Shown in pieces: positions 11,722 through 19,188 of a DNA stretch of 64,000 bases. The first letter of the stretch is position 1. Every line of letters starts with the position of its first letter. Origin of the DNA: a virus; the IMG/VR virus record IMGVR_UViG_3300036820_000003, positions 1 to 64,000 of that record; one strand, written 5' to 3'. Below the pieces are notes generated by a model. It ran no database searches, was not told the DNA's origin, and saw only the letters and a list, made by a program, of their open reading frames with translations. Made by a program: the position numbers and the translations under genes.

Positions 11722-13494
11722 ATGAGCGCACTCTCAGATGTCCAGCTCCACCTGATCACCAGTCTCGATGAGGCACTAGAACTCAAGCGCTGGCTGGGAG
11801 AGCGGCGCGAGATTCTCGCAGTGGACACGGAATCGTCCGGCTTGAGTCCCACGAGAGACAAGCTACGTCTTGTCCAAGTGGGAGATCACAAACAAGGCTG
11901 GGCGATTCCGTGGCCTATGTGGGGCGGTTTCGTAAAAGACATCTTCCGTGACTACGACGGACCAATTGTCATGCATAACCTCCCGCATGACTGGCGTTTC
12001 TTGCATCTTCAGGGGGATATCACACTCCCTTGGCATCGTCTAGATGATACATTGCTCATGGCTAGCCTTGACGATCCCGCCCGTCCCCGTGGACTCAAGC
12101 CCCTGTCGAAAAAACTTGTTGACCCCCGGGCGGATTCGGGTCAAAGAGCGCTCGATGATGGAATGAAGGCCGCAGGCTGGACATGGGCTACAGTTCCAGT
12201 AGACTTTGTGCCCTACTGGTATTATTCAGCACTCGACCCGGTGCTAACCGCTCACCTGTGGTCGTATTTGAAACCACGAGTGAGTCGTGATTGCCCTCTA
12301 GCGTACGATCTAGAACTAGGCACTAATCGGGTGTGCACTCAGATGATGCTACGTGGTATTCGACTCGATCGAGAATATGTAGCCGAAGCACAAGACAAAC
12401 TGGAAAAATACTCTAAGGATGCACGCTTCTGGCTTGATGCTGCTTACGGAATTAACAGCGTACTGAGCGCTAAGCAAATCTCAAGTGCTCTATCTTCACA
12501 CGGTGAGCCTCCTACAGCCTGGACTCCCACTGGCTTGCCGAAGATGGACAAGGAGTTTCTAACCCGCATTCGTGACTTCGGTCGGACCTCGGAGGCCCGC
12601 GAGATCGCGCAGCAGGTGCTCGGGGTGCGTCATGCTGAAAAAATGATCAGCTCTTACCTCGAAAATTTCGTTAAGCGCATGGATGACGATGGCATGGTAC
12701 GCTGCAGTATCTGGTCTGCGGAGGCAATCACGGGACGGATGAGTTGTACCGATCCCGCATTGCAGACTCTTTCGCGCGATGATACATTTATCCGTGGAAG
12801 CTTCATCCCCCGCGAGGGAAATGTCTTCATCTCCTGCGACTACTCGCAGGTTGAGGCGCGGCTGGCGGCGCATTATGGTCGCGACCTGGACATGATCCAG
12901 GCATTTCTAGACGCGGACGCGGGCGGGCCGGACTTTTTCACGACGATCGCCTCCCAGATCTACAACCGTCCGATCTCGAAGGCGGACATCGAACGCCAGT
13001 TCACTAAGAACGTCACCTACTGCACCATCTATGGCGGCGGACTCGAAAAGATGGCGAAGACCGGCGGGGTGAGTCCGGAGGTGATGGCCCCGGTGAAGGA
13101 GGGGTTCGACACTCGGTTCCCGGGGTTGCGCCGGTTCATGGCGGAGATCACAGCCGAAGCCAAAGAAACGGGCCGCCGGGAAGGTCGCCCGGCGGTCCGT
13201 TCTGGGATGGGACGCTACCTGCCGGTGGAGGAGCGCAAGGAGTACGTGGCGTCCAACCGGGTGATCCAGGCCGAGGCCGCCGAGGTGCTCAAGCGGGCGA
13301 TGCTCGACCTGGACGCGGCAGGGCTGGGCGAGTACATGATCCTCCCCATCCACGACGAGGTACTGTTCGATGTCCCTCGTGAGGAATCCGAGGAGGCGTG
13401 CAAGCTGATCGGTGATGTGATGACCGTGACGGACCGCTACCTGGTCCCGCTTACCGCTAAGGCCCAGATCCTTGAGGAGCGCTGGGCGAAGTAG
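11722..13494 (+). CDS. Family A DNA polymerase
   Basis: 590 residues. The N-terminal 3'-5' exonuclease domain has VDTES (Exo I), HNLPHDWRF (Exo II) and YSALDPV (Exo III). The polymerase domain has motif A DYSQVEARL, motif B with the conserved Lys-Tyr-Gly series (FTKNVTYCTIYGG) and motif C PIHDEV. There is no 5' nuclease domain, as usual for phage enzymes. It is the replicative polymerase, probably paired with the primase-helicase at 28636. The first half is lower in G+C than the second half, which may record recombination. Confidence 0.9.
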   Translation: MSALSDVQLHLITSLDEALELKRWLGERREILAVDTESSGLSPTRDKLRLVQVGDHKQGWAIPWPMWGGFVKDIFRDYDGPIVMHNLPHDWRFLHLQGDITLPWHRLDDTLLMASLDDPARPRGLKPLSKKLVDPRADSGQRALDDGMKAAGWTWATVPVDFVPYWYYSALDPVLTAHLWSYLKPRVSRDCPLAYDLELGTNRVCTQMMLRGIRLDREYVAEAQDKLEKYSKDARFWLDAAYGINSVLSAKQISSALSSHGEPPTAWTPTGLPKMDKEFLTRIRDFGRTSEAREIAQQVLGVRHAEKMISSYLENFVKRMDDDGMVRCSIWSAEAITGRMSCTDPALQTLSRDDTFIRGSFIPREGNVFISCDYSQVEARLAAHYGRDLDMIQAFLDADAGGPDFFTTIASQIYNRPISKADIERQFTKNVTYCTIYGGGLEKMAKTGGVSPEVMAPVKEGFDTRFPGLRRFMAEITAEAKETGRREGRPAVRSGMGRYLPVEERKEYVASNRVIQAEAAEVLKRAMLDLDAAGLGEYMILPIHDEVLFDVPREESEEACKLIGDVMTVTDRYLVPLTAKAQILEERWAK

Positions 13495-14086: not shown

Positions 14087-14378
14087 CTTCGTCCGCTCCT
14101 AGTTGCAGCAGCCTCCGCACCCACGCCAGATCCGGCAGCACAACAGGCCGGGCTGCGGGCGCGTCGGCCGGCTTGAGCAGGATGTCCTGCTTCCACGGCT
14201 CGGCATAATATGCGTTGTCCGAATGCGAGTTGTTGCTTCGCAGGCAGATAGTCCTGTCAGCGCGAATGCCGTTCAGGTACACTCCGCAGAACTGCTTGAC
14301 CTCCTCGATCTCGAAGTTCTTTTCGAGCGGCAAGATCAGATAATCCCTGATTCCGATCTTATACTGATAGACTGTCAT
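14079..14378 (-). CDS. Unknown protein
   Basis: 99 residues; begins MTVYQYKIGIRDYLILPLEK with alternating hydrophobics suggesting a beta sheet, and ends in an acidic helix. AAGGAAGC precedes ATG 14378. Overlaps the nuclease gene stop by 20 bp. Confidence 0.6.
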   Translation of the reverse strand: MTVYQYKIGIRDYLILPLEKNFEIEEVKQFCGVYLNGIRADRTICLRSNNSHSDNAYYAEPWKQDILLKPADAPAARPVVLPDLAWVRRLLQLGADEDE

Positions 14379-15360
14379 GCTTCCTTCCGAATTCCGTCAG
14401 AATCTCATCGATTGCACGGTCTGCGTATCTCGCGTACGGATCTACCTGCACGTAGTTGCCTCGCATGGCATCCTCGGCCCGGGATCCGTCGTCCCACATG
14501 CTGCAGACGGAGCTGAAGGGGCAGTACCACTGGCAGTCGTCACCCTCGACGTACCGTACGACGCTTTGATGATACTCGCCCGCCTCGATTCTCGCCCGCG
14601 CGTCCCGGATCTCGGTCGCGAGCTGTCGCACCCGCAGCCAGGTGGAATTGAGGTCGTGCCGGTTGTAGGCAAACTCCACTACCTGGTAGAACGGCCCCTT
14701 CGCACGCGGCGTTCGTTTTGATCGCAGCAGCATGACGTACTGCCCGCCGTCGGGACGACGGAGATGAGGCGTGTCAAGCGCCTGCAGCGCCTGAATCATG
14801 GTGTAGGTTTTCATCTGCGTGCTGATCGCCAGCCGGTCGGCCTTCGAAAAAGTTCCGACCGTCTTGTAGTCCCGGAAGAACACGGCTCCGTCGTCAAGTC
14901 TACGGACGAGCGCGTCCAGCTTGCAGATGAGCCGGAACTCCCCCCCGTCCGTCATGAACGGGAGGGTCACCGACGTCTCGCGCTCCGTGGCAATCACCTC
15001 GTACCCCGAGTTGTATCCCTCCTCGGCCGCCCAGTCGAGGAACCCCTCCAGCATCGCGAAGGCAAGCTCGCGTTCCTTCAGCAGATCGCCCTCCTCGCCG
15101 GACTCCTCTATCGCCCTGCGATAGATGAAATCGAGAGCGTCGAGTCCGGGTATCCCGTGTCCCTCGTGCGCTTCGAGCGCTAGGTGCAGCCGGGTGCCGA
15201 GGAGCGCGGATCCGGTCACAGGGGCGGTGACCGGATCCCGTCCCCACCTCAGGTACGTCCCCAGGTACCAGCGACGCGGGCAGCGCGCCCACGTCGCCAG
15301 TTCCGAGTGCGATAGAGTCAGAAGGTCATCCTGACTGCGGCCTGCGTTCGAGCTGATCAC
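14359..15360 (-). CDS. PD-(D/E)XK nuclease, Cas4/RecB-like
   Basis: 333 residues. LSHSELATWARCPRRWYLGTYL is the N-terminal Cys-containing motif. The catalytic core has FFRDYKTVG (the D...K pair) after a long helical part. The C-terminus has CQWYCPFSSVCSMW, giving three Cys that with the first could bind an iron-sulfur cluster as in Cas4/AddB. It is an exonuclease expected to process DNA ends in replication or recombination. GTG 15360 lies within the preceding gene's stop region (35-bp overlap). Confidence 0.8.
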   Translation of the reverse strand: MISSNAGRSQDDLLTLSHSELATWARCPRRWYLGTYLRWGRDPVTAPVTGSALLGTRLHLALEAHEGHGIPGLDALDFIYRRAIEESGEEGDLLKERELAFAMLEGFLDWAAEEGYNSGYEVIATERETSVTLPFMTDGGEFRLICKLDALVRRLDDGAVFFRDYKTVGTFSKADRLAISTQMKTYTMIQALQALDTPHLRRPDGGQYVMLLRSKRTPRAKGPFYQVVEFAYNRHDLNSTWLRVRQLATEIRDARARIEAGEYHQSVVRYVEGDDCQWYCPFSSVCSMWDDGSRAEDAMRGNYVQVDPYARYADRAIDEILTEFGRKHDSLSV

Positions 15361-17209: not shown

Positions 17210-17479
17210 ATGGCTGATCATGCGCGCAAGCGCAAGGGCAGACGCGGCTCCGACAAGGAGCGCGCGTTCAACCGACAGGACGTCCGGGACACCCCGAGGC
17301 GCAGACGCAGGCTGAAGCACAAGGAGATGAGCCGCAAGACCCATTCTCACGATCGGGAGTCGGTTCCTGAGAGCGAGAAGTTCCGCTGCCCGCGCTGTCG
17401 TCCGCTGCCGTGGCGAGAGAGCACGGCCATCCGCCCGGAGGCGGGACCGCGCGACTGGAAGCCGGCGAGGCGCGGATGA
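17210..17479 (+). CDS. Highly basic protein
   Basis: 89 residues, about a third Arg/Lys, with one CPRC pair. Likely nucleic-acid binding or ribosome-associated. ATG 17210 follows a weak GGGAA. Its TGA overlaps the next ATG (ATGA). Confidence 0.55.
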   Translation: MADHARKRKGRRGSDKERAFNRQDVRDTPRRRRRLKHKEMSRKTHSHDRESVPESEKFRCPRCRPLPWRESTAIRPEAGPRDWKPARRG

Positions 17480-17625
17480 GCGATCATCCGTGCGCGTGCC
17501 GATCGGACGGGACGCCATGTCCCCTGAGGGTGTCCCGTCCGGGGGAGTTCTGCAAGTTCTGCAGCACGTCGGTGGTGTGCATCAGCCGCCGACTGGAAGG
17601 AAAGGGAATCGATCGCGGTGACTAG
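17476..17625 (+). CDS. Cys-rich mini zinc protein
   Basis: 49 residues with seven Cys (CACRSDGTPC, FCKFC, VC), enough for one zinc site or more. Start chosen at ATG 17476 because of the ATGA junction with the basic gene. The TCS-type layout is seen in other small phage zinc ribbons. Confidence 0.6.
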   Translation: MSDHPCACRSDGTPCPLRVSRPGEFCKFCSTSVVCISRRLEGKGIDRGD

Positions 17626-18226
17626 GATATATCTCAACGCCCAGTTTAGCGACGGTCACAATCGCCCGCATCTGCTGAGCGTGGGGATGGTGTCGGAGCT
17701 GGGCGAGTTCTATCGCATCGTGGACGACGCGGACGCGGTGAACCACGCGCTGAAGAACGAGTGGATCCGGGAGCACGTCCTTCAGAGACTGCCCCTTGAA
17801 GTCGAGGGCCGGGAGTGGCACTGGACCCCGGAGGACAGGGAGTCCCGGTCCGATGTCCGGGATCCCCGGATCGCCACCGGTCTGGAGCTTATCGATGATT
17901 TGATCGACTTCGTCGACAGTCATCCGGAGCCGGAGCTGTGGGGCTGGCAGTCCGCCTACGCCTACACCCTGATCCGACGGCTGTTCGGGAAGATCACCGA
18001 TCGGCCTGCGAATTTCCCCCTGTGGTGCGGAGAGCTGGCCGCCAAGTGGTCGCAGGCCGGAAGACCGGAGCTTCCGGAGCGGGGGGCCGGGGGTCACCAC
18101 GCCCTGGAGATGGCGCGCTGGGCGCGAGACGTGGACGCCTACATCGATCGGATTGACCCGGTGGAAGTCGCCGCCCTGAAGAATGACACGGTCAGGGAGG
18201 CGATAATCGCGGCTAAGCCTCAGTGA
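17618..18226 (+). CDS. RNase AS-like DEDDh protein lacking all catalytic acids
   Basis: 202 residues that follow the actinobacterial 3'-5' exoribonuclease AS (Rv2179c) throughout: DGH...LLSVGMVSE..., WIREHVLQRLP, ELWGWQSAYAY, FPLWCGELAAKW and HHALEMARWARD. The active-site acids are replaced: the DxE pair is N7-A-Q9, the third Asp is A115, the last Asp is M165; only H160 remains. It should keep the fold and perhaps bind RNA but not cut. It ends at a strong terminator. See findings. Confidence 0.75.
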   Translation: MTRIYLNAQFSDGHNRPHLLSVGMVSELGEFYRIVDDADAVNHALKNEWIREHVLQRLPLEVEGREWHWTPEDRESRSDVRDPRIATGLELIDDLIDFVDSHPEPELWGWQSAYAYTLIRRLFGKITDRPANFPLWCGELAAKWSQAGRPELPERGAGGHHALEMARWARDVDAYIDRIDPVEVAALKNDTVREAIIAAKPQ

Positions 18227-18230
18227 CATG

Positions 18231-18266
18231 GCAAAAGCCCCGGTCGCAGGCGACCGGGGCTTTTGC
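18231..18266. terminator. Bidirectional terminator
   Basis: A perfect 16-bp stem (18231-18246 with 18251-18266) with AAAA on one side and TTTT on the other, between convergent genes. Confidence 0.85.
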
Positions 18267-18278
18267 GCTGCTCACGTG

Positions 18279-18695
18279 CTACGCCTTCGCCTTCTCGCGT
18301 GCCAGGACCTGGCGGCTCAGATCCGTGACTGAGCGCCTAAGCTCCTCTGCCATGATCAGATCCCTGAACTTGGCGAGGGCGAACCGGCGGGTGAGACGGC
18401 CGTTGAAAACCGATGTGACCCCGCCTTCCGTGCGGACGCTGTAGTACTCCTCGTTAGTGAGCCCGAGCAGATCGCGGGCTTCCTTCCCGGGGTCCTTCAC
18501 CCGAGTGAGGCCGTCCGGCTTGAAGAACCACGGCCCGATGAGCCGGTACCCCGCTGCCAGGAGGGTGTGACCCCCGAGGCAGGCGTGGTAGCAGCGGCCC
18601 GGACCCCAGCGGAATCCCCACGAGGCCATCCGGAAATTCCCGGGCCTGTCGCTGACGCGAGCATCCGCTGACTTTGCGAGAGCTAGATCCTGCAT
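18279..18695 (-). CDS. Unknown protein
   Basis: 138 residues from ATG 18695 (AAGGAAGGAA upstream); the open frame extends further but without support. GFRWGPGRCYHACLGGHTLL is a Cys/His-bearing Gly-rich turn. The C-terminal half is helical and basic. Own promoter candidate at 18726. Confidence 0.6.
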   Translation of the reverse strand: MQDLALAKSADARVSDRPGNFRMASWGFRWGPGRCYHACLGGHTLLAAGYRLIGPWFFKPDGLTRVKDPGKEARDLLGLTNEEYYSVRTEGGVTSVFNGRLTRRFALAKFRDLIMAEELRRSVTDLSRQVLAREKAKA

Positions 18696-18725
18696 TGCGT
18701 TCCTTCCTTGTTGTGTGGTACTGCC

Positions 18726-18731
18726 ACTATA
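18726..18731 (-). promoter_or_regulatory. Minus-strand -10 of the TAWACTGGCA class
   Basis: TATAGT followed by GGCAGTA on the minus strand, 30 bp before ATG 18695. The same box plus GGCA occurs at 38862, 43609 and 52966. Confidence 0.45.
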
Positions 18732-18744
18732 CCGCAGGCGAACG

Positions 18745-19188
18745 CTACGAGCCAGCCGCGCGCGCCTCATGATGCCCCGTCGCGGTGATGTGCGCGCCGA
18801 GGGCGTCCATCAGCTCCCGGGGCGTGAAGAACCCGCCGAAACTGTAATCGCACATCATGAGGTACTTCCCGCCCGCGCGCTCCTGCAGGACCGTCGAGTC
18901 GCAGGCGACGAAGTCGGACCCGTAGGCGTCGGTCACGTGCAGCGGCCAGTCCCACGCCGAGGTGGTCACCTTGACGTACTCTACGGGGAGACGTCGGAGA
19001 ACGGGCCGTGCGCTGTCCCTGGCGGACATCTCCTGGTAGTAGCGGACCTTGGCGACGTCCGCCGGATCCGACGAGTCCTGGTGCTCGCCGTCTCCGCGAC
19101 ACGGAACAAAACGACCGTGCGCGAGGCACACGACGGCGGCGTCGTGCTCGTACTCTTCGTTCGTCAGATCATCACTCCACGGCGACAT
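18745..19188 (-). CDS. Unknown protein
   Basis: 147 residues, acidic N-terminus, mixed alpha/beta with Cys at CLAHGRFVPC and MMCDYSFGG. ATG 19188, with AAGG about 10 nt upstream. No family recognised. Confidence 0.6.
   Translation of the reverse strand: MSPWSDDLTNEEYEHDAAVVCLAHGRFVPCRGDGEHQDSSDPADVAKVRYYQEMSARDSARPVLRRLPVEYVKVTTSAWDWPLHVTDAYGSDFVACDSTVLQERAGGKYLMMCDYSFGGFFTPRELMDALGAHITATGHHEARAAGS

Follow-up and report, generated by a model that had tools for sequence, protein, structure and literature searches.

The RNase AS enzymes, for which Rv2179c (PF16473, NF033638; PDB 4oke, 4hvj, and 6s0m) serves as the reference here, have a DEDDh exonuclease fold, and DEDDh catalysis requires two metals bound by four acids. 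Its members are described as forming dimers. Relatives of these enzymes are frequent in actinophages, with matches in 209 of 50,697 phage records, and we are aware of no established function for them in these viruses. The phage relatives collected in PHROG 2259 and labeled "DnaQ-like" or "RNase H," among them those of the Streptomyces phages LukeCage and Coruscant, retain all four acids (D, E, D, D) at the catalytic positions. Nuclease folds that have lost their acids are represented by Exuperantia, Maelstrom, and EXD1 (DEDD) and Ssd1 (RNase II), pseudonucleases that have been tied to RNA binding (PMC8097288); Maelstrom is without the DEDD pentad (PMC7968707). In a limited literature search, no phage or RNase AS pseudonuclease was found, the DEDD cases being described in eukaryotes only.

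The window analyzed here, bases 1–64000 of a 129,940-base virus record, contains a plus-strand gene (17618..18226; GTG start) for a 202-aa protein, pseudo-RNase AS, with a DEDDh (DnaQ-like) fold but without the four acids. Pseudo-RNase AS has in common with Rv2179c the fold, the motif order, the histidine, and most conserved structural positions, whereas it lacks the acids and scores below both the equivalog and the Pfam cut-offs. With the PHROG 2259 relatives it shares the phage setting, a similar length, and 31–33% identity, but not their intact acids. Its likeness to Exuperantia, Maelstrom, EXD1, and Ssd1 lies in a kept nuclease fold, lost acids, and a presumed link to RNA, although those proteins are eukaryotic, multi-domain, and members of other subfamilies.

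Family, fold, and genomic setting

The reading frame, coordinates, and residue numbers given in an initial annotation of this DNA proved exact when checked on the sequence and its translation; an antisense ORF (17582–18229, minus strand) was regarded as a shadow ORF arising from the GC-rich frame. Pseudo-RNase AS matched PDB 4oke (Rv2179c) in phmmer with an E-value of 7e-13, the Rv2179c structures 4oke, 6s0m, and 4hec all matching at about 1e-12, and PHROG 2259 was matched at 4.8e-23. The score against NCBIfam RNase_AS (NF033638) was 82.1 bits, below the curated equivalog cut-off of 200, and that against Pfam PF16473 was sub-threshold (18.7 bits versus a cut-off of 27); among the equivalog features, the catalytic histidine is present, and the bit score and the four acids are lacking. 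Identity is ~28–30% to Rv2179c and does not exceed ~35% for any homologue. The protein is homologous across the entire domain and shows the family fold in its model; judged by sequence comparison, pseudo-RNase AS belongs to the RNase AS family as a genuine homologue of the phage type.

A model built from an alignment with 74 viral homologues (pLDDT 91.7, pTM 0.84) was superposed on Rv2179c, as the initial annotation had proposed, with a Z of 21.7 and 1.8 Å over 155 residues, compared with a Z of 14.6 or less for the next exonuclease chains outside RNase AS. A C-terminal helical extension (residues 181–199 of the model) lies beyond the Rv2179c match, and the EXO-like domain of Exuperantia appears among the fold matches. 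Retention of the RNase AS fold is predicted with high confidence. The initial description of an RNase AS-family pseudoenzyme with an intact fold was borne out by phmmer, by the model superposition, and by the 207-member alignment considered below, and the protein agrees with the definition of a pseudonuclease as a nuclease fold without some or all catalytic residues (PMC8097288).

Two small plus-strand ORFs precede the gene, namely a candidate ORF for a very basic 89-aa protein (17210..17479; net charge +17, with a CPRC motif), which overlaps the next ORF by ATGA, and a Cys-rich 49-aa ORF (17476..17625; CxC...C...CxxC), which overlaps the start of pseudo-RNase AS by 8 bases and is likely co-transcribed with it; neither upstream ORF gave a family match. 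Downstream, a perfect 17-bp inverted repeat with a 2-base loop and A4/T4 flanks (18231..18266; −34.7 kcal/mol, z −6.35) lies between pseudo-RNase AS and a convergent gene (18279–18770) and resembles a bidirectional terminator. The hairpin was missed by the terminator scan, probably because its T run is only four. Pseudo-RNase AS thus comes last in a short plus-strand gene unit that this hairpin closes.

Replication-type genes are found nearby: DNA polymerase A (11722–13494), a PD-(D/E)XK nuclease (14359–15360), a dCMP deaminase, and a helicase. The host is probably an actinobacterium, because the nearest relatives of the polymerase belong to phages of Arthrobacter, Micrococcus, Microbacterium, and Gordonia, at 38–43% identity. 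RNase AS was not found in DSL-LC01 or GodonK, distant polymerase A relatives of this phage, and PADLOC gave no match. Among phages with intact acids, the RNase AS homologue of LukeCage lies within a tRNA gene cluster near a tmRNA gene, and those of Coruscant and Beuffert are also beside tRNAs, which may hint at a tRNA 3′-end role of the active phage enzymes.

The four catalytic acids and the conserved histidine

All four acids are replaced in pseudo-RNase AS. In strand 1, N7-A-Q9 (17636..17644) stands in place of D-x-E, with N7 encoded by AAC (17636–17638) and Q9 by CAG (17642–17644); A115 (GCC, 17960..17962) replaces the third acid, and M165 (ATG, 18110..18112) the last. These residues correspond in the phmmer alignment to D6, E8, D95, and D145 of Rv2179c, and the DEDDh histidine is kept as H160 (CAC, 18095..18097; Rv2179c H140), all of these codons being on the plus strand. 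The alignment to Rv2179c/4oke is without gaps over query residues 105–167 (63 residues), and A115, H160, and M165 are therefore fixed on D95, H140, and D145.

A set of 207 distinct homologues was drawn from phages, phage-plasmids, IMG/VR contigs, and actinobacterial genomes, much of it collected by a search pattern outside the acid columns; a D-x-E-containing pattern, which is biased to active members, led to the same result. The acid columns hold D in 205, E in 206, D in 205, and D in 205 members, respectively, and the column of H160—the histidine five residues ahead of the last acid—is invariant. The initial claim that the four acids are replaced and H160 kept was thus confirmed by the Rv2179c and 207-member alignments, and the question it had raised, whether all phage homologues lack the acids, is answered in the negative: pseudo-RNase AS is the sole member of the 207 that lacks every one of the four.

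The initial annotation had also considered that other acids might occupy the metal site, and in the sequence comparison with the family no replacement acids adjoin positions 7, 9, 115, or 165. The Asp and Glu residues gained in this protein are mostly in loop 61–75 and in the C-terminal part. With the four metal ligands gone and no substitute acid nearby, two-metal catalysis is near certain to have been lost, and pseudo-RNase AS almost certainly cannot cut RNA. That it is still an enzyme, working through other metal ligands or by a metal-free mechanism, is highly improbable. The kept H160, and E164 adjoining M165, would favor such activity; however, other homologues have E164 next to an unchanged D165 as well (the plasmid homologue L012 reads HHALED), so it is no replacement ligand, and new acids near positions 7, 9, and 115 are absent from the sequence.

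A single base separates each of the codons of N7, Q9, and A115 from GAC or GAG, and three bases separate the ATG of M165 from GAC; thus, the loss was not a single slip. Nor does general divergence by itself account for it. Of the 48 positions at which at least 85% of the family agree, pseudo-RNase AS departs at 18, and the hypergeometric probability that all four acids fall among these 18 is 0.016. The 44 non-acid positions comprise 14 changed and 30 kept, the latter including F10, S21, G23, Y32, W49, W108, Y114, G124, P130, P134, P153, H160, A162, and A166. Divergent plasmid homologues with 22–23 changed positions nevertheless retain acids, L012 (22 changed) keeping all four and L010 three, and divergence alone is therefore no explanation. 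As far as these comparisons indicate, the acid loss appears somewhat specific, though statistically not overwhelming.

Acid-variant homologues and the question of decay

Single acids have been lost in four other lineages among the 207 homologues (D7G, D115G, D115N, and D165N). D7G occurs in a Nonomuraea genome and a viral contig (L185 1504–2091 and L135 3004–3591), D115G in a viral contig (L151 3001–3675), and D115N in the Streptomonospora phage-plasmid phiM2 (L262 244–834), the homologues being otherwise normal in each case. The last acid is changed from D to N in a distant homologue found on the phage-plasmids pCQ3 and pCQ4 as well as on an IMG/VR contig related to them (L010, L255, and L266); this homologue shares with pseudo-RNase AS its divergence, an acid replacement, and the rare residues R120 and I126, but has lost only the last acid rather than four. 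Between copies of this pCQ-type variant, 13 synonymous and 12 non-synonymous changes give a dN/dS of ~0.29 (p 0.002 versus neutrality), which demonstrates that selection can maintain acid-variant members of the RNase AS family. A further reading, in which the pCQ4 homologue also lacks D7 and E9 (MTRVYIEAKTF), was rejected: a later DTE fits the spacing of D-T-E + 8 to LLSLG, and the copy is therefore without the last Asp only. A clade of pseudo-RNase AS with the pCQ3/4 homologues received an SH-aLRT of 86, but long branches meet in it and the clade is not established.

In L266 (IMGVR_UViG_2935109043_000001, 66297–67478), a contig of the Streptomyces phage-plasmid type (G001/L266), the divergent D-to-N copy stands in tandem with a canonical RNase AS, as a partner pair might. 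Such an arrangement would suit a dominant-negative partner, in which an acid-variant protein associates with host RNase AS via the surface by which the family dimerizes and stops or retunes the host enzyme. The closeness of the predicted fold to the host enzyme is in line with this mode of action, as are the deposition of RNase AS chains as pairs (4oke A/B and 6s0m A/B) and the wide occurrence of host-type RNase AS in actinobacteria. However, a shared dimer interface is doubtful because identity to Rv2179c, and to any homologue, is so low; a second, canonical RNase AS was not found in the 129,940-base record, which may be a fragment; and pCQ3 and pCQ4 keep the acid-variant without a canonical copy, the rest of the pCQ4 locus being 93–95% identical to the L266 contig. 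Dominant-negative action is thus considered unlikely for pseudo-RNase AS. Two RNase AS copies are also present in the Saccharopolyspora pogona phage-plasmid NZ_CP031143.1 (4843–5376 and 70238–70771), equal in score and 65 kb apart, and could reflect either a genuine duplication or a repeat introduced by assembly.

The terminal branch of pseudo-RNase AS (2.3–2.6) is over three times the median of ~0.7, and together with the 14 changed non-acid positions this could indicate a recently dead gene, encoding an enzyme that was active until lately and is now drifting out. Close relatives that would reveal constraint are absent from the collections searched: none were retrieved from viral and genome contig collections with the single protein as query, and a joint alignment with the pCQ homologues retrieved only a pCQ-type contig. 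In contrast, no stop or frameshift occurs across the 202 codons, and GC by codon position (0.68/0.43/0.81) is like that of the neighbor genes. Under simulated neutral drift, only ~5% of gene copies were still stop-free at 0.15 substitutions per site, so a long branch without stops implies constraint during most of it; likewise, the coding signature and the 30 of 44 conserved positions kept argue that the gene is not eroded. Recent death would also require that all four acids changed (~six base changes) ahead of any disabling lesion, and is accordingly thought quite improbable. The initial view that this is not a decaying gene therefore holds for most of its history, on the strength of the open frame, codon-position GC, and conserved positions, although constraint may have been lost recently. 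Selection may equally have kept the gene after the acids were lost.

Binding without cutting as a possible role

The initial annotation had proposed three possible roles: an RNA-binding decoy, a cap protecting 3′ ends, or a partner blocking the host enzyme by way of its dimer surface. The mode of action judged likeliest here is binding without cutting. The old substrate groove, with four negative charges fewer and the histidine kept, would accommodate the 3′ end of an RNA, or a nucleotide, and bound phage transcripts or poly(A) tails would be shielded from host exonucleases, a mode that would resemble that of the RNA-binding DEDD pseudonucleases of eukaryotes. Amide versions of such active sites are common substrate traps. 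RNA 3′ ends would be the natural ligand for a site of this kind, and we infer binding as the working mode, with RNA as the ligand and protection as the outcome.

The residues gained and lost bear on this role in both directions. Arg is gained at six positions of the domain (16, 33, 120, 121, 129, and 155), of which 120, 121, and 129 sit just past the third acid position and, with the invariant H160, favor binding. Against RNA binding, the protein has a net charge of −11 (pI 5.2), below the family median of −7, and overall charge gives RNA binding no special support. Furthermore, the RNA groove itself may be altered, because the basic residues that the family conserves at 43, 86, and 141 are missing, and substitutions occur near the third acid at positions 111 and 116. 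Owing to the negative overall charge and the changed positions around the site, the shielding of phage transcripts by binding is given a little less than an even chance.

The same acidity and the several changed family-conserved positions around the former acids would equally fit a scaffold or binder of a non-RNA partner—a protein, a DNA end, or a nucleotide—for which the DnaQ fold is merely a frame. The C-terminal extension and the proximity of DNA-metabolism genes, namely the polymerase A and PD-(D/E)XK nuclease genes, also point this way. However, the upstream neighbors of RNase AS genes vary among phages, with no conserved upstream partner found among them and no candidate partner identified, and a non-RNA ligand is regarded as improbable.

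Overall, pseudo-RNase AS may be a phage RNase AS turned non-cutting that either protects the phage's own RNA 3′ ends or disables host RNase AS, a possibility held tentatively and at somewhat short of even. If true, the phage would be countering RNA decay in its host with a protein derived from the same type of enzyme that the host possesses. In a family member stripped of all its catalytic acids, binding and cutting are naturally uncoupled, which could help to tell whether RNase AS relatives serve phages through catalysis or through RNA binding; the DEDD pseudonucleases also gain an example from a phage.
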